A stretch of DNA of 60,406 nt from Oscillospiraceae bacterium (lineage in GTDB: Bacteria; Bacillota; Clostridia; Oscillospirales; Ruminococcaceae). Numbering within the stretch: the first letter of the stretch is position 1; each line of letters opens with the position of its first letter. A program made the position numbers and the translations under genes. Shown here in pieces: positions 6,343 through 16,587 of the stretch. The notes under the pieces are model-generated. The model made no database searches. It worked only from the letters and a program-made list of their open reading frames with translations, and had not been told where the DNA came from. The DNA is taken from contig WRHO01000010.1 of assembly GCA_009783205.1 (NCBI GenBank), forward strand, positions 1-60,406, in the 5' to 3' direction.

Positions 6343-6375
6343 ATAAAGTTATACATTTCTTTTTACCCGACGTCA

Positions 6376-6420
6376 AGATTCGCCCCGCGGACGAGCAAAG
6401 CCCGTCCGCGGGGCGAATCT
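6376..6420. terminator. Bidirectional terminator between convergent genes
   Basis: A GC-rich inverted repeat with an 18-bp perfect stem (arms AGATTCGCCCCGCGGACG and its complement) and an 8-base loop. It lies between the kinase stop at 6342 and the stop of the convergent minus-strand gene at 6422. Confidence 0.85.
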
Positions 6421-6421
6421 C

Positions 6422-7210
6422 TTATTTGGCATTTGGCTTTCTTAAAATAACGATAAAAATTCCCGCAGTTACGGCAAGAATCCCGTATATCGGAGTTATA
6501 CCGGTTTTGGGGTTAGCGTCTTTGTATATTGCGGGATTTGTTGTGTCCGAATGTCCGACGGAGTTCGAGTCAAACGACATGGCTTGTGTTGTGTTATCGG
6601 TTATATTTGTTGACATTTCTGTTGATTCTATAATAATATCATAGCCGATAAACGGAGCGTCATGTGTGGTTATATGCGACTCTTCAATTTCAAACGCCTT
6701 ATTTGTTTCGGAGAGATATGCGGACGTATCGGCGCGGAGAACATCGCTTATAATAATCGGGAGCGTTACCGATTCAGTTGTTTCGGTCTCGGGGGAGCCG
6801 TCTTTCTCAAAATAAAGTTGAGATTCGGTTTGAATCGGAACGGTGTTTGTTTCGGGCGGCAAAGTCTTGTTGTTTACACCCTCGTTTTCGAGTTCGTCCA
6901 ATACATCTTTTTTTGTGCGTATATCACCCGACTTAACTTGAACATTATTATAATTGCCGCCAAAATTGCTGTCCGCAACCATTAAAAGCTCGGTGTCACA
7001 ATTTGGGCAATTAAACAATATATTGTACCGTTTTAAGCTTTCGCCTAAAACAATAATGCTCAGCTTTTCGCCGGTTGTATACCCGCACACGGGACATGGT
7101 GTGTTTTTTAGCGCGTCGGCGGTTCCGAAATGATTTACCGCGAACACATTAAAGCTTAGTGTGTTAAGCATACAAATAAGCATAAAAAAAGCAACTATAT
7201 TTTTATTCAT
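6422..7210 (-). CDS. Secreted protein with zinc-ribbon and C-terminal NPKTG sorting-like signal
   Basis: I do not recognise a named family. The 262 residues carry a signal peptide (about 1-24), two CxxC pairs (CPVCG near 39 and CPNC near 69) that could form a zinc ribbon, a long Thr/Ser/Glu-rich spacer, and a C-terminal NPKTG motif at residues 233-237 followed by a hydrophobic helix and the charged tail RKPNAK. That layout is the cell-wall sorting signal read by sortases, here with Asn in place of Leu. It lies downstream of the phosphonate locus in the same direction, 90 bases after the broken sulfatase gene. Wall anchoring is inferred; no sortase is in the window. Confidence 0.7.
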   Translation of the reverse strand: MNKNIVAFFMLICMLNTLSFNVFAVNHFGTADALKNTPCPVCGYTTGEKLSIIVLGESLKRYNILFNCPNCDTELLMVADSNFGGNYNNVQVKSGDIRTKKDVLDELENEGVNNKTLPPETNTVPIQTESQLYFEKDGSPETETTESVTLPIIISDVLRADTSAYLSETNKAFEIEESHITTHDAPFIGYDIIIESTEMSTNITDNTTQAMSFDSNSVGHSDTTNPAIYKDANPKTGITPIYGILAVTAGIFIVILRKPNAK

Positions 7211-7300
7211 AAAAAAACTCCAATAAATTATTGACGGAAGCGGTATATTATACTCCCAAATAAATTATGTGCAGTTTTTTTACAAATATGAATACAGCTT

Positions 7301-7981
7301 CTAAGGATTATTCGATTGTGGGATAATCGGGAGATACTCCCAATTATCGAATTCATTTGCGTCGCCGTTTACTTCATAAATTGAAGCAAGCTCAATACGA
7401 CCCGCCGTATACCAACGATTAATCTTAATTGTTCGAGTCGGCGACAAGCCGCCATTAATAATGTCAAAATAAGATAGCCCGTATTTTTCATGCGGAAGCC
7501 CCGCAAACTCTAATATACTCGCGGGGAAGTTTTCATGAGAGAGCTCCGAAACACTGTCTCTTTTCATTTCGCCGCGTGCATCTTTAGTTTTTATTAATAA
7601 AGCAGAGGTTATTTCTTTCTCCAAGAAAATTGTTAACTCGTATTCAATATCATATGACGGATTACCGTGGTCGGCTACAATAATAATGGTCGATTTATCA
7701 TAAATATTAAGCTTTTTCATCTGAGAGAAATAATCGTCGAGTATATCTAAAGCTTCCTTTGCTCTTCCGTAATAACCTATTTCTCCGCTGTCGTGTACGC
7801 CCGCAAAATGTATAAAGGTGAACATTTTATTCTTATTTTGCACCGAAAGACCTATGTCCTTTAAATTAGCTTGAAAAGTGCGGTCTGTATCATATGAAAC
7901 GCTCGGTTGTGCAAAGCTCTCGTCTGATTCGACATCAAATTTATAAAACGTGGTGTTAACATCAACTCCATCCGCTTCCAA
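7301..7981 (-). CDS. C-terminal part of the sulfatase-fold protein
   Basis: This frame continues that of 8063-9046 after the premature TAA. It holds TFIHFAGVHD, IIVADHG and LSHENFPA, the conserved C-terminal metal-site segments of the alkaline-phosphatase superfamily. The only nearby start is a TTG at 7979-7981, with GGAGAGC just before it, so independent translation is possible but has little support. There is no signal peptide or membrane helix, so a separate product would be cytoplasmic and lack the nucleophile. Confidence 0.55.
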   Translation of the reverse strand: MEADGVDVNTTFYKFDVESDESFAQPSVSYDTDRTFQANLKDIGLSVQNKNKMFTFIHFAGVHDSGEIGYYGRAKEALDILDDYFSQMKKLNIYDKSTIIIVADHGNPSYDIEYELTIFLEKEITSALLIKTKDARGEMKRDSVSELSHENFPASILEFAGLPHEKYGLSYFDIINGGLSPTRTIKINRWYTAGRIELASIYEVNGDANEFDNWEYLPIIPQSNNP

Positions 7982-8062
7982 AAAGCTCTCCTTAAAATAG
8001 TACGGAACGGCTTTTCCAAAGGAGATATTAAATAAAGTTTTACATAACTGTAAAAAGTTTAT

Positions 8063-9046
8063 TTAAATTTCCGAATCGCGCAAATTCATCATATTGTCGC
8101 TTTTGTCAAAAATTTGTTCTTCGGTTCCAAAGGTCGAAACCTTATCTATAAGCATTGTTGAACCATATCCGTTATCGCGCAGTTCATCAATAACACCATA
8201 ATTCGACCACGCCTTGTCCCAATATTCGGCAAATGTATCGTCATATTCATATACCTCGTTCGTCAGCATACGAGTGACGGCGGGAAAAGTGTTTGTGTCG
8301 GTCGAAAGATTATTTTCGTAATATGTGAACCCGTCTAACATTTCATATAACTCCGGGAAGTTATCGAGAGCCTCGTTCATAAATTTAACATCAAGCCTGT
8401 CTACTATAAAAACACATATATTCTCTTTTGATGATAATTCAAGAGTCTTGTTATATGAAAAAAAGCATTCTCCGCCCACGCTCTTGCCGTCATATTTGGA
8501 TAAAGCCGGTATAAGTCCTACCGCTTGCATGCCTATCATAACAATCGAAATACCGGTTATAATCGGAAATAAACACTTCTTCTTTTTTTTCAACAATATA
8601 TGTGCTACAAACGGTAGAATAACAATCAAACACCATAAAACGAAATTAACAGTGCGTTTAAATGTTATATCGCCATAATTAGCGGTATTTCCATTAAGAT
8701 TGACCATATCGGAATTGAATAATAGTACCTGTATATAACAAGCAAGAGCAACCCCAAGCATTAGAAGTAAAATCATTTCGAGAACGATTTTTTTAAATTC
8801 TCTGAATAAAACGGGATTAATTACAGCGGTTATTAAAAAAACAATTAAGCTTACTGTGGCGAGCGGCAGAAGAACATTAGAAATGCTTACGTTAAAATCA
8901 TTATAGTTGTTTAAGTATAAATCAAACGGCATAAAAAAGAACAATGTTAAAGTAAACGCCGCACAAGATAAAATATATGCCGCGCGTTTCCTTTTCTCTT
9001 CAAATAACATCGGAAAGACCGATTTTAATATCGTTTTGTTTTTCAT
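8063..9046 (-). CDS. N-terminal part of the sulfatase-fold membrane protein
   Basis: 327 residues: five hydrophobic helices (about 15-210), then the beginning of the sulfatase/alkaline-phosphatase domain (IVDRLD near 218, DTNTFPAVTRM near 255). The ATG overlaps the stop of the upstream YidC-fusion gene (ATGA), so it is translationally coupled. It ends at a TAA at 8063-8065 before the metal-binding HG motif is reached and should be inactive alone. Confidence 0.7.
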   Translation of the reverse strand: MKNKTILKSVFPMLFEEKRKRAAYILSCAAFTLTLFFFMPFDLYLNNYNDFNVSISNVLLPLATVSLIVFLITAVINPVLFREFKKIVLEMILLLMLGVALACYIQVLLFNSDMVNLNGNTANYGDITFKRTVNFVLWCLIVILPFVAHILLKKKKKCLFPIITGISIVMIGMQAVGLIPALSKYDGKSVGGECFFSYNKTLELSSKENICVFIVDRLDVKFMNEALDNFPELYEMLDGFTYYENNLSTDTNTFPAVTRMLTNEVYEYDDTFAEYWDKAWSNYGVIDELRDNGYGSTMLIDKVSTFGTEEQIFDKSDNMMNLRDSEI

Positions 9047-10911
9047 TTTCTTTTCTCTTTAATACTGTTGATTAAATATTCGCCACCGATTTGTGCCGAT
9101 TGTCCCGGGTGATAAATACACTCGTTAAACACATCTGTAATCTTTTCATAATAATCATCACTTTTCTCGATTAAATCTAAACAAAGCTCGCTTATATTCG
9201 CTAATTTATCAACGTCCGCCGAGACACCGATTTTATCACGAATCCATATATCAATAGGTGTAACATCAATTCTATCCCACTCGGGGTTCATAATTTTCAT
9301 TGGGGTATTAATATACAGCGACGGTTTTCTTGTTGTGAAAGAGAACTCAAGCGCGATTGCCGACCAATCGGTGATTATTAAGTCCGAGCAATATATAGTT
9401 GAATTAGACGAAAAATCGGTCTGTATCTCAAAATTATCCCCTTCTCTATCTCCGTATTTATCAAAAATTGCTTTCATTCGCCAAGGGAAACGCTTAACAA
9501 ATTCGGGGTGCGGTCGAAGTATAACTTTATAGCTTTCATTAAGCAACGCGCCTAACAATTCATCGAGACAAATTTCAAGTATGTTATCCTTTTGCCAAGA
9601 TGGTGCGATTAAAATTTGCGGCTTGTCGTTTTTTTGTTTCTCCAAAGCTTGATATTGTTCTATAAGCATATCGAGTAAGCCGAAGCCTACGTTTACGAGC
9701 TTTTTCGCGTGTAAATTATAAATCCGCTCCATTGCTTTAATTTCATCGTTATGATTTTTCCCGTAACAAAAAATCGTGTCGAAATTATTTAACGCACCTT
9801 TTCGATATATCATATTAAAGCTTCCAAATCCGTGGTCGATATATACGTACTCTATATCTTTTCTGACGAGCGAGCGTTTATAATGATAGGTTTCTAAATC
9901 GGGCATTGTCATAGCGACAATATCCGAATCCATTTTCATAAATGCCGAAATAAGCCCGTTTGATGTACAAAAATAAGGTTCAAATCTCGGTTTATTAAAT
10001 TCAAACACCCGGTCATTATAGTCGGCGGTCAAATAATGAACCGTAATATCGGAATTGTCGAGTATATAATTTATAAAATGTTCAAAATATTTCCAAAAAC
10101 CGCTCGCCTCCGAAAAGAAAACAAGTTGTTTTTTTGCGGCGTAAAACCGCTCCATATCCTTTTTCTCGCGCTCTTTTTCAAGCTTTTTGCGGTCTCTTTT
10201 TTCGGTCTTGTCACCCTTAGACAAAACCGGCTTTACAAAATCGCTCGCGTTATAACCAAGCTTTTTGGGGTTATAAATCATCGTGCATAAAACGGTTACC
10301 AAAATGCTGAACACGTTACCGCACACCCAGTAAAGCCCGACGCTCGCCTGACACACGAAGGCGAAATAGCCGGAAAATCCCGTAAGGAATATCGCCACGC
10401 CCCATTTTGTTAAAAAACCCTGTGCTTTTGTTAAGGGGTTAAGGCTATTTTGTACGAGACACAATAAAAAAGAAGAAAGTGCCGCTAAAATCGGAAAGAC
10501 AACAAGGCTCGAGGTAAGCGTAGGAACCCTTGCCAAATCCAATCCCAAAAAGTAAAAGTCATAACTACTGTCCTCTACAACGGTATATACCGCCCGTACA
10601 ACGCCAATAATAATCGGGATTTGGATAAAAAGCGGTAAAAGTGCTTTAAGTGTGCTGTATTTTTCTTTTTTATAAAGCTTATTTTGTTCGCGGAACATTT
10701 CGCCGGGTTCGCCCGAATGTCTCGCTTTTAAATCCGCCAACTGCGGCTGAAGCTTAAAAAGAACGAGCGAATTTTTTTGTGATATGAGAGAAATAGGGAA
10801 TAGAATAACCCTTGTTAAAAGGGTAAACAAAATAATCGCTATACCAAAATTCCCCGTCGTTATATAGCATTTGTCTATTACATAAATTAACGGCTCGATT
10901 AACAAATTCAA
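9043..10911 (-). CDS. YidC/Oxa1 membrane insertase fused to TagF-like CDP-alcohol phosphotransferase
   Basis: 622 residues with two known families joined. Residues 1-215 are a YidC/Oxa1/SpoIIIJ domain: five membrane helices, LLTRVILFP near 30, LQPQLADLK near 55, and no lipoprotein signal or extracytoplasmic domain. A charged linker (about 220-250, rich in KEKR) follows. Residues 255-615 resemble CDP-glycerol glycerophosphotransferases (TagB/TagF): DHGFGS with H360, ILIAPSW near 437, RPHPE with H468, and ITDWSAIALEF near 512. The start is TTG, with GAGGT upstream at good spacing. It sits between a LicC-like nucleotidyltransferase and a sulfatase-fold enzyme in the phosphonate operon. I infer that it transfers a CDP/CMP-activated group to a polymer at the membrane, with the YidC part as anchor or channel. 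Its substrate is unproven. Confidence 0.85.
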   Translation of the reverse strand: MNLLIEPLIYVIDKCYITTGNFGIAIILFTLLTRVILFPISLISQKNSLVLFKLQPQLADLKARHSGEPGEMFREQNKLYKKEKYSTLKALLPLFIQIPIIIGVVRAVYTVVEDSSYDFYFLGLDLARVPTLTSSLVVFPILAALSSFLLCLVQNSLNPLTKAQGFLTKWGVAIFLTGFSGYFAFVCQASVGLYWVCGNVFSILVTVLCTMIYNPKKLGYNASDFVKPVLSKGDKTEKRDRKKLEKEREKKDMERFYAAKKQLVFFSEASGFWKYFEHFINYILDNSDITVHYLTADYNDRVFEFNKPRFEPYFCTSNGLISAFMKMDSDIVAMTMPDLETYHYKRSLVRKDIEYVYIDHGFGSFNMIYRKGALNNFDTIFCYGKNHNDEIKAMERIYNLHAKKLVNVGFGLLDMLIEQYQALEKQKNDKPQILIAPSWQKDNILEICLDELLGALLNESYKVILRPHPEFVKRFPWRMKAIFDKYGDREGDNFEIQTDFSSNSTIYCSDLIITDWSAIALEFSFTTRKPSLYINTPMKIMNPEWDRIDVTPIDIWIRDKIGVSADVDKLANISELCLDLIEKSDDYYEKITDVFNECIYHPGQSAQIGGEYLINSIKEKRK

Positions 10912-10916
10912 TTGAT

Positions 10917-11615
10917 TTATACCTCGTTTATAAGCTTCAATTCCGCAACGGTATCAATTTCGATTATTTGCTCCGGTTTAACCGGCGAAACCGAAACATT
11001 AATATCGCGGAGAACACCGTCTACAATTTCGTCCCAGTATAGCTCCTCATGACCGGCTTTATCATATGCTTGATTCAATGCGCGCATAATAACTTGTATA
11101 TCGTCCTTAAGCCAAAAAGATATGCCGCACATATTATAAAGGTCTGTGCCGTTTCTGTCTAATTTTATTATTCTGTCGGTATTTTCTTCGGTAATAAATA
11201 CCCATTCATCGGAAAACCCGGATACATATTTCCCCAAATAACACGATTTACAAAACTCGGTTAAAAGCATATTGCGGTCAGAAATATATAAATCCGCCTC
11301 GCATATAAAGCAATTTGTATCACCTAAAATATTCTCCGCCGCTTTAAGAGAGGATATATTATTTTTTGTCATATACTCTTTATTTTCGAGTAAAGTAACA
11401 TTATTATACTTATCGGTCAAATATTTAAACTGTTCCTTTTTATAACCGGTCATGATAAAAATTTTCATATCGCCGCGTTTTTTTAGCGTTTCTATAACCG
11501 TTTCAATCATCGGAGTCCCTTTGACCTTTATCAAAGGCTTAGCGGTTTTTTCGGTTAGCGGACGCATTCTCGTTCCTAATCCCGCCGCCATTATTAATGC
11601 AATTTCGTTTATCAT
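10917..11615 (-). CDS. LicC-like phospho-alcohol/phosphonate nucleotidyltransferase
   Basis: 232 residues of a sugar-nucleotidyltransferase fold close to LicC (phosphocholine cytidylyltransferase). The nucleotide-binding loop IMAAGLGTRMRPLTEKTAKP starts near residue 8, and the metal-binding acidic segment EADLY is near 107. The family couples CTP to phosphocholine, AEP or sugar phosphates. In this operon it could make CMP-AEP or the CDP-activated unit for the adjacent TagF-like domain. A second nucleotidyltransferase is fused to the PEP mutase, so the two must divide the work. It starts 14 bases after the transaminase stop, with AAGGA upstream. The fold is secure; the substrate is inferred. 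Confidence 0.85.
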   Translation of the reverse strand: MINEIALIMAAGLGTRMRPLTEKTAKPLIKVKGTPMIETVIETLKKRGDMKIFIMTGYKKEQFKYLTDKYNNVTLLENKEYMTKNNISSLKAAENILGDTNCFICEADLYISDRNMLLTEFCKSCYLGKYVSGFSDEWVFITEENTDRIIKLDRNGTDLYNMCGISFWLKDDIQVIMRALNQAYDKAGHEELYWDEIVDGVLRDINVSVSPVKPEQIIEIDTVAELKLINEV

Positions 11616-11629
11616 TTATATATCGTTCC

Positions 11630-12763
11630 TTAACCCGCTATATATTTCACCGGAATTTCTACATTCGCCTTTTTCAACCCCGCTTCAAATGTTTTAAAAA
11701 AATCATGTATATCCGAAGCGTCAATTGCCCCGAATGAACACAATCTGAACGTATTGGTTCCCCGAATAACGCCGGGGTAAATGGTAAATCCTCGGTCATA
11801 ACAATAATCGTGAATATCGTTAAAGCTCCAATTTTTGTCGTCGGGATAAATTGCAGAAATGACCAATCCCGACTGTTGTTCTTTTTTTATATATTCTTTA
11901 AATCCGAGTTTTTTTAATCCGTTATGAATAGCGTCATTAACGCTTTTATGTCTCAAGAATTTGTTTTTCTCGCCCTCAAAAAAGTATTCCTCCATCGCTT
12001 GAACGGCGGCATACACCGTTTGTACGGGGGGGGTAAAGTGCATTTGTTTATTCTTGATAAAATGTTCATACTGCATAAAAAGATTACAATAATACGAGCG
12101 TTTCGGGTATTTCTCCGACTCAATGATTAGCCGCGTTTTACCTATGACATATGAAAGCCCCGTCATCGCCATAAGCCCTTTTTGCGCCGAAGACATACAA
12201 AAGTCGATATTATCCGCTTCGACATCAATCGGTATCATTCCGTAGGTAGATGTTGTATCAATCACCGATATGCAGTTATATTTATGCGCGAGCGCGCCTA
12301 TTTCGCGAATGGGGTTTAAAATGCCGGTTCCCGTTTCGTTATGGGTAGTGTAAACAACCGCAATGTCGTCGTTTTTTAATAGAGCGTCTTCAATTTCGTG
12401 CAAAACCGGTAATTCATCATCGCGAAATTTCAACTCAATGTACGATAAGCCGTAGTGTTGGCATATTTCTACCGCCCTCGAGGTGTACGCGCCGTTATTT
12501 ATAACGAGGATTCTTTTGTTTTCGGGTAAAAGCGAGTTTAAGCAAACGTCCATACAGATAGTTCCCGAGCCGCAAAAAAGCACAGCCGAATAATCATCAC
12601 CGCCATGAACAATTTTTACCAAATCGCACTGTAACCGTTCCAATATATTAGCAAACTCTTTTTCACGCGGACAGATATCAGGGACAATTTGCGCCGCCTT
12701 AACGCCGTCGGTTGTTGTAGCGGGGCCGGGATTAAGAAGGACTTTCTTCTCTTTTTTAATCAT
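11630..12763 (-). CDS. phnW: 2-aminoethylphosphonate-pyruvate transaminase (PhnW/AEPT-like)
   Basis: A class V PLP aminotransferase of 377 residues. In the biosynthetic direction it aminates phosphonoacetaldehyde to 2-aminoethylphosphonate. Family features are LLNPGPATTTDGVK near residue 9, the CGSGT motif near 65, VYTTHNETGTG near 140, VIDTTSTYG near 170, and the PLP Schiff-base lysine K195 in SSAQKG. The flanking PEP mutase and phosphonopyruvate decarboxylase point to AEP synthesis and not degradation; no phnX phosphonatase is present. ATG start with an AGAAATAGAGAG purine tract. Very likely an AEP transaminase. Confidence 0.92.
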   Translation of the reverse strand: MIKKEKKVLLNPGPATTTDGVKAAQIVPDICPREKEFANILERLQCDLVKIVHGGDDYSAVLFCGSGTICMDVCLNSLLPENKRILVINNGAYTSRAVEICQHYGLSYIELKFRDDELPVLHEIEDALLKNDDIAVVYTTHNETGTGILNPIREIGALAHKYNCISVIDTTSTYGMIPIDVEADNIDFCMSSAQKGLMAMTGLSYVIGKTRLIIESEKYPKRSYYCNLFMQYEHFIKNKQMHFTPPVQTVYAAVQAMEEYFFEGEKNKFLRHKSVNDAIHNGLKKLGFKEYIKKEQQSGLVISAIYPDDKNWSFNDIHDYCYDRGFTIYPGVIRGTNTFRLCSFGAIDASDIHDFFKTFEAGLKKANVEIPVKYIAG

Positions 12764-12771
12764 TTAACTCT

Positions 12772-13533
12772 CTATTTCTTTCTAAGCACAAGAAAAATAT
12801 CGGTTGAATTTGAGCTTTCCTCAATTATTGTGAATCCGCATTTTATAAGCAAGCTTTTAATTTGCTCGGGGGTATAATATCTGTAGGTGATATTATCCTC
12901 GATTGTTTCAAATCTGCCGTCGGGAGCCGTTATTTCATAAATTGAAACATATTCGATAATTTGTTTTTCTTGGTCAGATTTTATATTTTTTGTATAACGA
13001 CGAATTTTATTGTTTGTGGCGGGGTCGACCGTTATATACGCCTCGGTTTCTTTCCCGAGCCAGTCGTCGCCGTATGATTGTCTCGGAATAAACACACTGA
13101 ATAAAAAAAGCGAATCGTCATTCATATGCTTTTTTATATTTTTCAAACATTGAACCGCATCCGATTCATTAAGTAAAACTTGGAAGGCGCGCCATATTAA
13201 AATAACTAATCCGAAGGTTTTATTTAAGTTGAATATTGTCATATTTGCATTTTCAATTGAGAGATTTTTTGTTATTTCATCGGGAAGCTTTGCCGCTTTT
13301 TCCCTAAAAACGGAAAGCATTGTATCCGATAAATCGAAGGCGGTAACATTACGGTCAATTGCTTTTTTAAGCACGGGGATTGTCACCCTTCCCGTACCGC
13401 AGGCGATTTCCAAAATATCTCCTTTTGTTTTTTCAACACATTCTAATGCAATTTTTACATCGTCGTTTAACAAATCTCTATTGTCAAAATCATAGAGATA
13501 CGCCGTGTTCTCGTATAAATTTTTTGTAGCCAT
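12772..13533 (-). CDS. SAM-dependent class I methyltransferase
   Basis: About 253 residues from the ATG at 13533, chosen over an upstream TTG at 13542 because AGGAAGG lies ten bases before it. The Rossmann SAM site is EIACGTGRVTIPVL near residue 43, followed by an acidic motif in TAFDLS. It resembles small-molecule methyltransferases, with no rRNA or DNA target signature. It lies between the decarboxylase and the transaminase in a tight operon, so methylation of AEP nitrogen or of a phosphonate intermediate is a reasonable guess. Nothing in the sequence fixes the substrate. Confidence 0.8.
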   Translation of the reverse strand: MATKNLYENTAYLYDFDNRDLLNDDVKIALECVEKTKGDILEIACGTGRVTIPVLKKAIDRNVTAFDLSDTMLSVFREKAAKLPDEITKNLSIENANMTIFNLNKTFGLVILIWRAFQVLLNESDAVQCLKNIKKHMNDDSLFLFSVFIPRQSYGDDWLGKETEAYITVDPATNNKIRRYTKNIKSDQEKQIIEYVSIYEITAPDGRFETIEDNITYRYYTPEQIKSLLIKCGFTIIEESSNSTDIFLVLRKK

Positions 13534-13550
13534 TTTAATCAAACCTTCCT

Positions 13551-14618
13551 TTAAACTGTTTTTAAACCTTCTTTAAACCTCGTCGCCTGTCCAAATATTA
13601 AATCGCGTTCGGGGCGCGGTAAATCCTTCATTGTTCCGACGCGGATTCTCGAATACATCTGTGTATAACGGGGAGTCGCTCTAAAAGCTTTGATTAACCC
13701 CGCCAACTCATCGGGAGAATTGACGTAAGCCGTCGGATAAAGCCGCTCCATAACATCAAAAACGCGGCTCTCGCCAAAGCTGTTCCTTTGCCCGCCGGTG
13801 GATTCGTTTGCGGAGTTGTCCAACACGATATAGCACAGATTGTCGGGCTTCTTTTGCGTGAGGGTATACAACCCGCCGAGCCGCATCAGACAAGCACTGT
13901 CTCCGTCAATCGCAATAATCGTTTTGTTTGGTAAATTCTCGCTTAATCCTAACGCCAATGATGAAAGACAGCCCATTGAGCCGACCATATAAAAGTTTTC
14001 TGCCCTATCCTTTATACAATACATTTCGCGACTTGTGAAACCGGTTGCGGTTACTATTACAGAGTCTCCCGCGCCGCTTGATATTGCTTTTAGAACATCA
14101 TAACGCAACGGAAACTCATTTGTTTCGGTTACGACAGAATTGAGCTTTACCGAAGAAAAAGTAGTTTTTTCATTAACAAGAATTGCCGCCGAGCTTTGTG
14201 CGAGACAGGCGTTTGCGTTTTTCAAACAATCCTCGTCCTCTGCGTTAAAATACGGTATGTTTAAAGCGTCCAAAAAAGGCTTAACCACGGTTGCCATTAT
14301 ACGATGCTGCGGTTCGTCGTCAACCCCGCGGTTTCCTATTATAAGCAACGTGTGTAACCCGAACAATTCGTTAAGCGACGTGAGCGGCGAAAGTGCGTTT
14401 GAAAGACCCGAATTTTGCATAAGAACCGCACATTTGTTTCCGCCGAGCGACGCCCCCGCCGCATATGCCAAAGCGTCGCCTTCGTTCACAAACGCTTCAT
14501 ACAAACCGCGGTTTTCAACCTCGTTTATTATTGAGCCGAGAAAGGAACATGGAACGCCCGCAAATTTCTCAAACCCGTATTCTTTTAATTCGTCAATAAA
14601 AAGCTTTGTATCATTCAT
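13551..14618 (-). CDS. aepY: Phosphonopyruvate decarboxylase
   Basis: A thiamine-diphosphate enzyme that decarboxylates phosphonopyruvate to phosphonoacetaldehyde, the step that pulls the unfavourable PEP mutase equilibrium. About 355 residues. The pyrimidine-binding segment includes NEGDALAYAAGA near 50, and the ThDP/Mg motif is GDSACLMRLGG near 236 with LDNSANESTGGQ after it. The start is the ATG at 14618, preceded by GGAGAAG; it lies inside the last codons of the PEP mutase gene, an eight-base overlap that implies translational coupling. A longer in-frame extension to 14675 has no ribosome site and is rejected. Confidence 0.93.
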   Translation of the reverse strand: MNDTKLFIDELKEYGFEKFAGVPCSFLGSIINEVENRGLYEAFVNEGDALAYAAGASLGGNKCAVLMQNSGLSNALSPLTSLNELFGLHTLLIIGNRGVDDEPQHRIMATVVKPFLDALNIPYFNAEDEDCLKNANACLAQSSAAILVNEKTTFSSVKLNSVVTETNEFPLRYDVLKAISSGAGDSVIVTATGFTSREMYCIKDRAENFYMVGSMGCLSSLALGLSENLPNKTIIAIDGDSACLMRLGGLYTLTQKKPDNLCYIVLDNSANESTGGQRNSFGESRVFDVMERLYPTAYVNSPDELAGLIKAFRATPRYTQMYSRIRVGTMKDLPRPERDLIFGQATRFKEGLKTV

Positions 14619-16218
14619 AGACTTCTCCGACTTTAAGAAGGTCGTTAATTGAATTAATATCAACGATTGAATCACGAGACGAAACGATTGAAACTATATT
14701 TAACCCTTGTTCAATTGCGCGGCATAAAAATCCGGAACAAGATAGGCTTTCGATATCCTCAGCTTTTAATAATTCGCCTATCGCCGAATAATTATTAATC
14801 ATCATTAACCCGCTGAAATAAACCGTGTCGCCGTTTCCGGAAGAACTCGGTTCGGGACAGTCGGGACAAACCGCAACGACCTCAACGCCGTTGCCCGCGT
14901 GAAACAAGTCGTCAAAATCATTGTTCAGTTTTAGCGAAAAACCATTGTTGATATAATTCTCTTTAACGCATACCAAAACCAAATCCGCGTCGGCGTGGTC
15001 ATCAATACAACCGAGAATATCGCGCAATAAATACCTCTTAAAAAATACATCGCCGTATAACGCAAAATACGGTTGCTTCGCCTTTGCTGAATAGAGCGAA
15101 AGGGTATACATTACCTTTGTCGTTTCCCATTTGTCGTTATCAATTATTGTCAACTCGGGGTATTCAATTTCTTCTTTTTTATACCCCCTCACAATAGAAA
15201 TGTCGGATATACCTATTTCGTTTAACGCCTCAATTTGGCGGTCGAGTATGGTCTTACCTTTAATAGTCAGAAGCGATTTAGGCTTACTGTAATCGAGCGT
15301 TTCGGATGCACCCGCCGCTAAAACAACCGCGCCGAAGCCGGAACCGGAGGGCATATATTCCTTTTCCATTTCGAGATATTCTTCATTTTTTTGAAGTCTG
15401 AATATTTCCGAAACCGACGCAATCGCCCCCTCAACATTTGCAATAGAATTGTCCTTATAAATCTTGGCGCACACCTGTTGCATGGCGGTAACGCAGGAAC
15501 GGACATTGTGGTTAGCCCAAATAATGCCGCTGATTCTCGGGTCTTTTGTTAATTGCTTGACGGGGATTGAATAATATTTTGTGGGTACAATAAAGATAGG
15601 CGTTTCGCGTTTAAACGCCCCGAGAAATTCAAAAATGTCTTTAGGGTTTGCGAGCTTCGAATGAACCAATAAAGCATCCGCACCGGCATCTAAATACATT
15701 TCTGCACGTTTTATAGCATCGGCTACACCCGCGCCGACAATCAACGATTCCAACCGCGCTATAACCGAAAAATCGGGGTCGGTTTGAACCGCTTTCATTG
15801 CGCGAATTTTACCGGAAAATTCAACGGGGTCGGCAAGAGCATCAAGCTTTGTTTCTAAAAACGAGTTTGTCTTAGGGAATTTCTTGTCTTCGATACAAAC
15901 GGCGGCTATCCCCGTTTGCTCTAACTTTGTCAACAAGCGACAGGCGTTGTTGAAATTGCCGTAGCCGGTATCGCCGTCAACAAGTATCGGAAGGTCGCAC
16001 GCGTCGTTCATGTATTCGAGTACGTCGAGCAACTGTGTGTATGAGATTTCGTTGTTGTCGCGTACTCCGAGAGAGGCGGTTATGGACAAACCGCTCGCCC
16101 ATATAGCCTCAAACCCCGCTTCTTCAACTATCTTTGCGGACAGCCCGTTATGCGCCTCCATAAGAAAAAAATGACTTTTCGAATTTAATAATTCTCTGAA
16201 TTTTTTAGTTTTGCTCAT
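14611..16218 (-). CDS. aepX: Phosphoenolpyruvate mutase fused to a PntC-like nucleotidyltransferase
   Basis: A bifunctional 535-residue protein. Residues 1-285 are PEP mutase, which forms the C-P bond of phosphonopyruvate. The diagnostic EDKX5NS motif is present as EDKKFPKTNS (residues 110-119), which separates PepM from isocitrate and methylisocitrate lyases. LVDGDTGYG near 78 supplies Mg ligands. Residues 293-535 form a nucleotidyltransferase with VLAAGASETLDYSKPKSLL and a metal-binding YGDVFF segment. Its loop lacks the usual GTR, as AAGASETLD replaces AAGxGTRL. PepM-nucleotidyltransferase fusions are known in surface-phosphonate loci, and PntC makes CMP-AEP. The ATG is five bases after the upstream small gene. 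First committed enzyme of the operon. Confidence 0.95.
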   Translation of the reverse strand: MSKTKKFRELLNSKSHFFLMEAHNGLSAKIVEEAGFEAIWASGLSITASLGVRDNNEISYTQLLDVLEYMNDACDLPILVDGDTGYGNFNNACRLLTKLEQTGIAAVCIEDKKFPKTNSFLETKLDALADPVEFSGKIRAMKAVQTDPDFSVIARLESLIVGAGVADAIKRAEMYLDAGADALLVHSKLANPKDIFEFLGAFKRETPIFIVPTKYYSIPVKQLTKDPRISGIIWANHNVRSCVTAMQQVCAKIYKDNSIANVEGAIASVSEIFRLQKNEEYLEMEKEYMPSGSGFGAVVLAAGASETLDYSKPKSLLTIKGKTILDRQIEALNEIGISDISIVRGYKKEEIEYPELTIIDNDKWETTKVMYTLSLYSAKAKQPYFALYGDVFFKRYLLRDILGCIDDHADADLVLVCVKENYINNGFSLKLNNDFDDLFHAGNGVEVVAVCPDCPEPSSSGNGDTVYFSGLMMINNYSAIGELLKAEDIESLSCSGFLCRAIEQGLNIVSIVSSRDSIVDINSINDLLKVGEVYE

Positions 16219-16223
16219 ATTAT

Positions 16224-16472
16224 TTACTGTTCCTTATCGGATTTTTCAATTTGTTTTTGTAACGATTTGACTTTCAAGCCTTTAAAAAACATGATTATCT
16301 TATGTCTTAATAAACCAAAAACCACACCGAGCGTTATAAACACACCCGCAACTATTTGTATCAGCAGGGCTGATGTTGTCGGGTCTATATAAGCCGATGC
16401 GGTATTAATGAATAAAAGCGAGGCTAAAAGCATAAAATACGTATATCTCGCGGCTGTCCCTATTTTTTTCAT
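16224..16472 (-). CDS. Small membrane protein with AYIDPTTS motif
   Basis: 82 residues from the ATG at 16472, preceded by AAGGAG; an in-frame ATG at 16496 lacks a ribosome site. There is an N-terminal signal or membrane helix, then SAYIDPTTSALLIQIV and a second hydrophobic helix, ending in a Lys-rich cytoplasmic tail. I recall similar small proteins with an AYIDPGTGS-type motif beside surface-polymer and sulfatase-fold genes, but I know of no assigned function. It is the first gene of the phosphonate operon, five bases before the PEP mutase start, so it is probably a subunit or accessory of the membrane step. Confidence 0.75.
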   Translation of the reverse strand: MKKIGTAARYTYFMLLASLLFINTASAYIDPTTSALLIQIVAGVFITLGVVFGLLRHKIIMFFKGLKVKSLQKQIEKSDKEQ

Positions 16473-16559
16473 TTGACACTCCTTATTATAAAACATTATT
16501 AATAATACAATCCTGTGTAAATTTTTTACAAATCCCCATGAATCAATAATTAATATTAA

Positions 16560-16587
16560 ATTATATCACGAAAAAAATAATTGTCAA
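16560..16587 (-). promoter_or_regulatory. Promoter of the phosphonate operon
   Basis: Minus-strand TTGACA (16582-16587), 16-base spacer, TATAAT (16560-16565). It lies about 88 bases before the first start codon at 16472. No other strong promoter was seen inside the operon, whose genes are separated by short gaps or overlaps. Confidence 0.75.

Follow-up and report, generated by a model that had tools for sequence, protein, structure and literature searches.

A YidC-TagF fusion in a predicted 2-aminoethylphosphonate operon: a candidate head-group transfer machine in Clostridia

Introduction

In the Lic pathway, LicD presumably places its head group on a lipid-linked glycan within the cell. Enzymes of the TagF family draw on CDP-linked donors and are known for polymer acceptors. 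In the Pnt pathway, 2-aminoethylphosphonate (AEP) is synthesised and activated as CMP-AEP, and the tailoring steps that follow are called enigmatic (PMC6697681). Here, a 60,406-nucleotide stretch from an Oscillospiraceae bacterium (assembly GCA_009783205.1, contig WRHO01000010.1, forward strand; hereafter the window, meaning the whole stretch analysed) was examined for an eight-gene operon in which genes for AEP supply stand beside a YidC-TagF fusion gene and an LtaS-like, sulfatase-fold gene.

The operon resembles the Pnt pathway in its PepM with fused and separate nucleotidyltransferases, in AEP synthesis and in CMP-AEP as the predicted activated form. It differs in its YidC-TagF and LtaS-like genes, whereas the neighbours given in the main text of PMC6697681 are LicD-like phosphotransferases or glycosyltransferases, with no mention of YidC or sulfatase. 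Likeness to the Lic pathway lies in LicA, LicB and LicC-like genes at related loci and in a separate nucleotidyltransferase (NT2) that is nearest LicC; unlike that pathway, the operon and its relatives fill the transfer position with domains of TagF, YidC and sulfatase type, and 21 of 35 genomes with these domains gave no match to LicD (PF04991). The TagF-like domain shares a Pfam family and conserved motifs with TagF/CDP-glycerol glycerophosphotransferases, but it is fused to YidC, and no glycerol-CDP or polymer genes were recognised adjoining it. LtaS and the EptA/MCR phosphoethanolamine transferases have transmembrane segments ahead of an alkaline-phosphatase-type domain, as the sulfatase-fold proteins seem to have; unlike in these transferases, the sulfatase domain of one group of relatives is fused to YidC. 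With YidC/Oxa1 insertases the proteins share PF02096 and, in one form, a Lys or Arg in the groove; they differ by fusion to transferases and, in the other form, by a groove Asn.

These loci are a concrete candidate for the tailoring steps, apparently common to phosphonate and choline decoration in Clostridia, and their exchangeable domain fusions make the parts list testable. If the proposed role is correct, surface decoration would become predictable even where LicD is lacking from a genome, and protein insertion would not be the only job of the YidC fold.

Results and discussion

YidC, TagF and sulfatase domains in two fusion forms

The new part of the finding is the transfer half. By family and profile matches, it combines YidC, TagF and sulfatase domains, which are fused in two alternative ways. 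In the window, PF02096 and PF04464 were matched above their Pfam cut-offs in one frame (PF04464 43.2 bits, cut-off 22.1). The HG, RPHP and DWS motifs of the TagF part, which we take to have functional roles in the TagF family, were invariant or nearly so in 26 members.

The TagF part was searched against 394 genomes of the order. Eighteen strong matches in 17 genomes all lay in long frames, which were YidC-TagF fusions, and 16 weaker matches (E 5.2e-24 to 2.2e-35) lay in frames of 416-473 residues and were free TagF-like proteins. A YidC-sulfatase fusion of 877-984 residues adjoined 15 of these 16 free TagF loci; the sixteenth, L174, ends near a contig end. One of these YidC-sulfatase proteins was compared with Pfam and matched 60KD_IMP and Sulfatase. 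Loci with YidC-TagF and a free sulfatase were designated type I, and loci with free TagF and YidC-sulfatase were designated type II. Type I comprises 26 loci: the 18 strong order matches, the locus of genome G034, three named loci and four loci of the class; the 16 free TagF loci made up type II. Canonical YidC loci, mainly from other genomes and some cut by contig ends, served as 20 controls. All relatives' genomes were drafts with mechanical gene calls, and spurious frames were checked against tblastn positions.

Profiles detected a sulfatase at 21/26 type I loci and 15/16 type II loci, and YIDP, the small membrane protein that opens the window's operon, at 24/26 and 2/16, respectively; both were at 0/20 controls. 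Since 16 and 14 of the same loci had gone into the two profiles, these counts describe the machine and do not test it. Against solved structures, the sulfatase-family profile gave LtaS at 1.5e-12, true sulfatases from 1.5e-11 and MCR-1 at 1e-4. Across 16 members of the family, the presumably catalytic Asp, Thr, His and Asp-His were invariant or nearly so.

The groove residue of the YidC domain was Arg in the window, Lys or Arg in 26/26 type I and 20/20 canonical proteins, and Asn in 15/15 type II proteins. This charge has been called strictly conserved, yet is reported in the same paper to be potentially dispensable when its neighbours change (PMC8920935), so the type II Asn alone is no proof of lost insertase work. 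A separate canonical YidC was present in the window's own genome (G000), in G034 and in G036. The original prediction regarded the export and attachment half as undescribed; this agrees with our search of open-licence PMC text, judged by titles and abstract starts, in which no description of a YidC/TagF/sulfatase machine was found.

Supply half of the operon

The eight genes run on the minus strand from 16496 to 7301, with short gaps or overlaps, in the order YIDP, PepM-nucleotidyltransferase fusion, Ppd, methyltransferase, AEP transaminase, NT2, YidC-TagF and sulfatase (Table 1). Family matches upheld the predicted combination of AEP synthesis and CMP activation with a YidC-TagF membrane protein, the supply half of which has a precedent in PMC6697681. 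PepM scored 342 bits with TIGR02320 (NCBIfam cut-off 319.6), and its EDKX5NS motif, predicted to be intact, reads EDKKFPKTNS. The transaminase exceeded the cut-off of its model (360.8), and Ppd fell below that of its best family. The two predicted nucleotidyltransferases were present as two domains, one of them being the C-terminal half of the PepM protein. The chemistry of this half, from phosphoenolpyruvate to CMP-AEP, is known: fusions of PepM to a nucleotidyltransferase are common, and clusters that have a separate nucleotidyltransferase as well as a fused one are on record (PMC6697681).

The nearest relatives of the PepM-nucleotidyltransferase protein in a plasmid collection were proteobacterial AepX proteins (46.6-49.5% identity over 75-77% of the query; best 15 of 432 records). 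Matches in 341 genomes of the class were 33-38% identical and, among the 29 matches listed, ended near the PepM part save for partial overlap with the linker. That AepX is closer than the class-level PepM matches hints, within the plasmid collection and class genomes searched, at a possible transfer between phyla.

The nearest NCBIfam model of the methyltransferase was daptide methyltransferase (105.9 bits, cut-off 175). N-methylation of AEP by this putative enzyme is possible, and to that extent the predicted methylated form stands; a methyltransferase match was found at only two of the 26 type I loci, both in the window's own genome and one of them partial. Trimethyl-AEP ('phosphonocholine') is kept only as a possible product, because the W, Y, W and D of the LicC box, present in NT2, are equally present in most nucleotidyltransferases linked to a putative phosphonate importer (below).

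Substrate of NT2

The nearest solved structure to NT2 was LicC (1jyk, 125.9 bits), followed by PntC (6pd1, 43.7 bits). In Tde-PntC, Glu104 and Glu196 are placed by the AEP amine, and LicC has Asp105 and Asp192 (PMC6697681); Glu106 of NT2 falls at the Glu104 position. A tree was built from 26 nucleotidyltransferase relatives from machine loci, including L102, with two long branches left out (the PepM-fused domain and L094). Eleven choline-kinase-linked enzymes formed one clade (support 99/99) with Ser, Cys or Met at the Glu104 place and Glu in 0/11. Glu was found in 8/8 rows of the importer-linked clade (support 92/99; importer in range of five) and in 3/3 rows of the clade of NT2, the support of which was weak (90/61).

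With Glu at this place, as in the importer-linked clade and its own, NT2 is most likely an AEP-type enzyme. The position alone is not decisive, because His replaces Glu in four N-terminal domains of PntC type, of which three stand beside PepM, and this counts against the assignment. A plain LicC function was rejected: LicC is the nearest solved relative, yet NT2 lies outside the clade of 11 choline-kinase-linked enzymes. Phosphocholine was likewise rejected as the window's head group, as no choline kinase (PF01633 at E 0.01) was found in the genome, which is 96.6% complete. In some of the nucleotidyltransferases at machine loci (L095 7888-8769, L165 3043-4872), a winged helix-turn-helix domain at the N-terminus hints at self-regulation.

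Supply genes near the machine and the link to PepM

Neighbours were counted by tblastn within 8.5 kb, mostly at a score of at least 50 bits. A LicC/PntC-type nucleotidyltransferase was found near 13 of 26 type I loci, with none found near the other 13, and near 14 of 16 type II loci. Choline kinase (LicA) stood near 1/26 type I loci (L002, with a BCCT transporter) and 10/16 type II loci, and LicB near 7/16 type II loci. A PhnS2/PhnU2-like importer was near four type I loci; at type II loci, PhnS2 was near two and PhnU2 near one. No supply genes were found near any of the 20 controls. The pairing of the machine with genes for head-group supply, seen again in other families of the class, thus exceeds what chance would give.

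The importer at L095 was matched best by the NCBIfam models PhnS2 (210.5 bits), PhnT2 (298 bits) and PhnU2 (384.7 bits), all below the equivalog cut-offs. Among solved structures, its PhnS2-like binding protein was nearer to binders of iron, sugar-phosphate and pyridoxal-phosphate than to the AEP binder; the 4r72 group is among these matches. LicA was not found within range of the importer loci, which fits a phosphonate that needs no kinase. AEP is a likely, though not a sure, cargo. Common to the supply sets, it appears, is a small head group that would become linked to CMP.

At the genome level, PepM was found in 8/17 fusion genomes against 17/377 others in the order sample (p 1.4e-6), in 7/16 once the genome of the window was removed (one-sided p 1.0e-5), and in 3/4 against 21/322 outside the order (p 0.0013; 15 order members set aside), all of these p-values being made optimistic by shared ancestry. 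The eight PepM-bearing fusion genomes of the order belong to seven families by database labels. Physical linkage was rarer than this co-occurrence. Beyond the window, PepM lay ~2.3 kb from YidC-TagF in G310 (L101), 1.2 kb in G644 (L158) and 5.3 kb at L004, all type I, and ~2.3 kb from a free TagF and YidC-sulfatase fusion in G344 (type II). In G286, an AEP transaminase stands beside PepM on a different contig from the machine.

From the 25 PepM genomes of the order, 21 further PepM neighbourhoods (L110-L130) were taken; G322, with only partial matches, was left out. Ppd was near 20 of them and an iron-type dehydrogenase near 14, and the transferase was not recognised. Thirteen of the 21 match a triple fusion of a MobA-type domain, CTP_transf_like and PepM over nearly its whole length. 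The predicted linkage of PepM to YidC-TagF in relatives was recovered in G310, G644 and L004; its exclusivity was not, given the choline kinase at other loci. The phosphonate link holds and is not exclusive.

Where LicD is and is not found

The window's own genome has one LicD match, on contig C18, and none within the operon. In G331 and G210 (96% and 97% complete), LicA and LicB stand beside a type II machine and LicD was not found. These two genomes give the best single argument for the machine doing LicD's job, though not a general one.

Interrupted sulfatase gene and its paralogue

The predicted operon was complete; the sulfatase gene, however, is one frame of 582 codons including stops and is interrupted by a TAA at codon 328 (8065-8063), ahead of the conserved His and Asp-His of its family. 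This TAA is either a real nonsense codon or an assembly error, and the data do not separate the two. A second YidC-TagF copy, 78% identical, lies in the same genome on contig C12 (617-2473) and is followed by an uninterrupted sulfatase gene (580 aa). The part of the window copy before the stop is 53% identical to that paralogue and the part behind it 50-51%; similarity of this kind on both sides means no visible decay. The synonymous divergence (dS) for the part behind the stop was undefined or >1.5 and gave no usable selection estimate. Five hydrophobic segments precede the sulfatase domain in the window copy and four in the C12 paralogue at the same threshold. Ahead of the C12 copy, near the contig start, a methyltransferase is represented by its C-terminal part only. 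At this C12 locus (L035, G000:C12, 255-5670) the sulfatase gene is followed by one for a 484-aa protein that has eight hydrophobic segments and matched no Pfam family.

Proposed mechanism and alternatives

Families, linkage, the two fusion forms and the alternative supply modules were read directly from the DNA. From these we infer the substrates, the order of steps, a lipid intermediate, the topology, the acceptor and the role of YidC. We consider it fairly probable that the loci encode a LicD-independent head-group transfer machine, charged here with AEP or a methylated form of it. PepM, Ppd and the transaminase would make AEP, which NT2 and/or the PepM-fused domain would activate with CTP to CMP-AEP, perhaps after N-methylation. 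At the cytosolic face, the TagF-like domain would move the phosphonyl head group from CMP to an acceptor bound to the membrane, the YidC-like domain would hold or pass the loaded intermediate, and the LtaS-like enzyme, with its active site outside, would transfer the head group to a surface molecule. Such a machine could stand in for LicD. Given the stop in the LtaS-like gene of the operon, the final transfer would depend on the paralogue on C12, unless that stop came from faulty assembly.

A lipid loaded inside and unloaded outside would need a way across, and YidC, fused to either enzyme, would be rightly placed for it; a preprint (PMC10491306) describes lipid scrambling in liposomes by YidC purified from E. 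coli. It is conceivable, though we hold it as a tentative proposal, that a YidC/Oxa1 fold has been turned into a lipid-passing part: TagF would load a lipid on the inside with AEP, another phosphonate or phosphocholine taken from CMP, the groove would scramble that lipid outward and the LtaS-like domain would unload it on a surface molecule; a single machine would serve different head groups, and LicD would not be needed. If this lipid-passing reading is true, the type II groove Asn would mark a change of YidC's job.

Several results weigh against a LicD-independent machine charged with AEP. PepM was near only 4/26 type I and 1/16 type II loci, and the genome-level enrichment is subject to the shared ancestry noted above. 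A TagF match was near 0/21 of the further PepM neighbourhoods, so most PepM operons of the order are not beside the machine. LicD was found in 14/35 machine genomes, including the window's own. The TagF part had no solved-structure match at E 0.01, true sulfatases matched the sulfatase profile almost as well as LtaS, and the sulfatase gene linked to the operon is the one that carries a stop. The type I loci with no sulfatase found nearby are L003 (on a contig of 3.2 kb), L004, L103, L108 and L158, of which L004 and L158 are PepM-linked.

Some of these points would suit a Lic-like, one-step route, in which TagF attaches AEP without an intermediate to a lipid-linked glycan on the inner side, YidC serves only as an anchor, and the sulfatase acts separately as an esterase or hydrolase in remodelling. 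The CMP-linked donors throughout, the five type I loci with no sulfatase found nearby, the closeness of true sulfatases to LtaS and the surroundings of L002, which look like glycan genes judging only from gene length and context, are consistent with it. Joint work is argued for by the fusion of YidC to TagF or to the sulfatase, the pair being adjacent in 15/16 type II loci, and the conservation of the presumed catalytic residues also speaks against a one-step route, which we regard as rather unlikely. TagF might otherwise move AEP to diacylglycerol or a similar lipid, where the decoration would stay. A YidC membrane domain beside the transferase would fit such a phosphonolipid, as would the presence of only two PF04464 proteins in the genome, both YidC-TagF copies, so that no polymer pathway is seen. 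For the same reason the reading of the fusion as a teichoic acid polymerase was rejected, and the teichoic-acid-like polymer of the original prediction found no backing, as no ordinary polyglycerophosphate polymerase was seen. A phosphonolipid would leave the adjoining LtaS-like enzyme without a job, and TagF-family enzymes are presumed to have polymer acceptors; we think it improbable. That the operon is a decaying, inactive relic in this genome is suggested by the in-frame TAA and by the partial methyltransferase ahead of the C12 copy. The other seven frames are open, the two parts of the interrupted gene are about equally similar to the paralogue (51% and 53%), the promoter-like site is perfect and an intact sulfatase paralogue lies on C12, all of which make a relic very improbable.

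Feature coordinates and flanking observations

Table 1. Features of the operon and related loci. Positions are those of the window unless a locus is named.
Feature	Position	Strand	Basis
Promoter-like site, TTGACA-16-TATAAT with TG	16560..16587	-	12/12 consensus match only
YIDP small membrane protein, 90 aa	16224..16496	-	Relatives near 24/26 type I loci (profile built from 14)
PEP mutase (PepM) with C-terminal MobA-like nucleotidyltransferase domain	14611..16218	-	Pfam/NCBIfam matches, motif
Ppd, phosphonopyruvate decarboxylase	13551..14618	-	TIGR03297 256 bits, cut-off 312.5
SAM-dependent methyltransferase	12772..13542	-	PF13649
2-aminoethylphosphonate transaminase	11630..12763	-	TIGR03301 407.5 bits
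NT2, LicC/PntC-like cytidylyltransferase	10917..11615	-	PF00483; nearest solved structures; tree and residues
YidC-TagF fusion, 622 aa, TTG start	9043..10911	-	PF02096 and PF04464; 26-member alignment
LtaS-like transmembrane alkaline-phosphatase-superfamily (sulfatase-fold) gene, in-frame TAA	7301..9046	-	Pfam; family profile nearest LtaS
Long hairpin, probably ends transcription	about 6372..6420	.	Read directly in sequence
S26-type signal peptidase relatives	L003 2929-3212; L094 12726-13247; L095 11164-11739; L096 7924-8427; L098 2416-2982		Sequence clusters

The gene set, order and short gaps given in the original prediction were recovered, all on the minus strand, except that the small membrane protein, placed last there, is the first gene. 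Its likely start is the second ATG, near 16472, with AAGGAG ahead of it. The probable ATG of Ppd, at 14618, overlaps the stop of PepM (the listed frame opens at 14675), and the ATG of the sulfatase gene overlaps the stop of YidC-TagF. A single promoter had been proposed, and the perfect site at 16587-16560 agrees with it; as the sigma-70-like scan overall was at chance (34 sites against 30.6 expected), weight is placed on that site only. G+C content was 41-45% in the PepM, Ppd and transaminase genes and 35-38% in the YIDP, methyltransferase, NT2, YidC-TagF and sulfatase genes. No tRNA integration site was found within the window. A role in defence was rejected, the single weak PADLOC match belonging to the methyltransferase.

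The operon had been drawn from 6422 to 16587. The genes at 7301-16496 belong to it, and no reason was found to include the gene at 6422-7210. The product of the latter, which matched no Pfam family, has hydrophobic segments at both ends, two CxxC pairs and, close to the C-terminus, NPKTG; it resembles a surface protein of the sortase type. A relative of S26-type signal peptidases adjoins the machine at five of the 26 type I loci, with Pfam run on the L095 member only.

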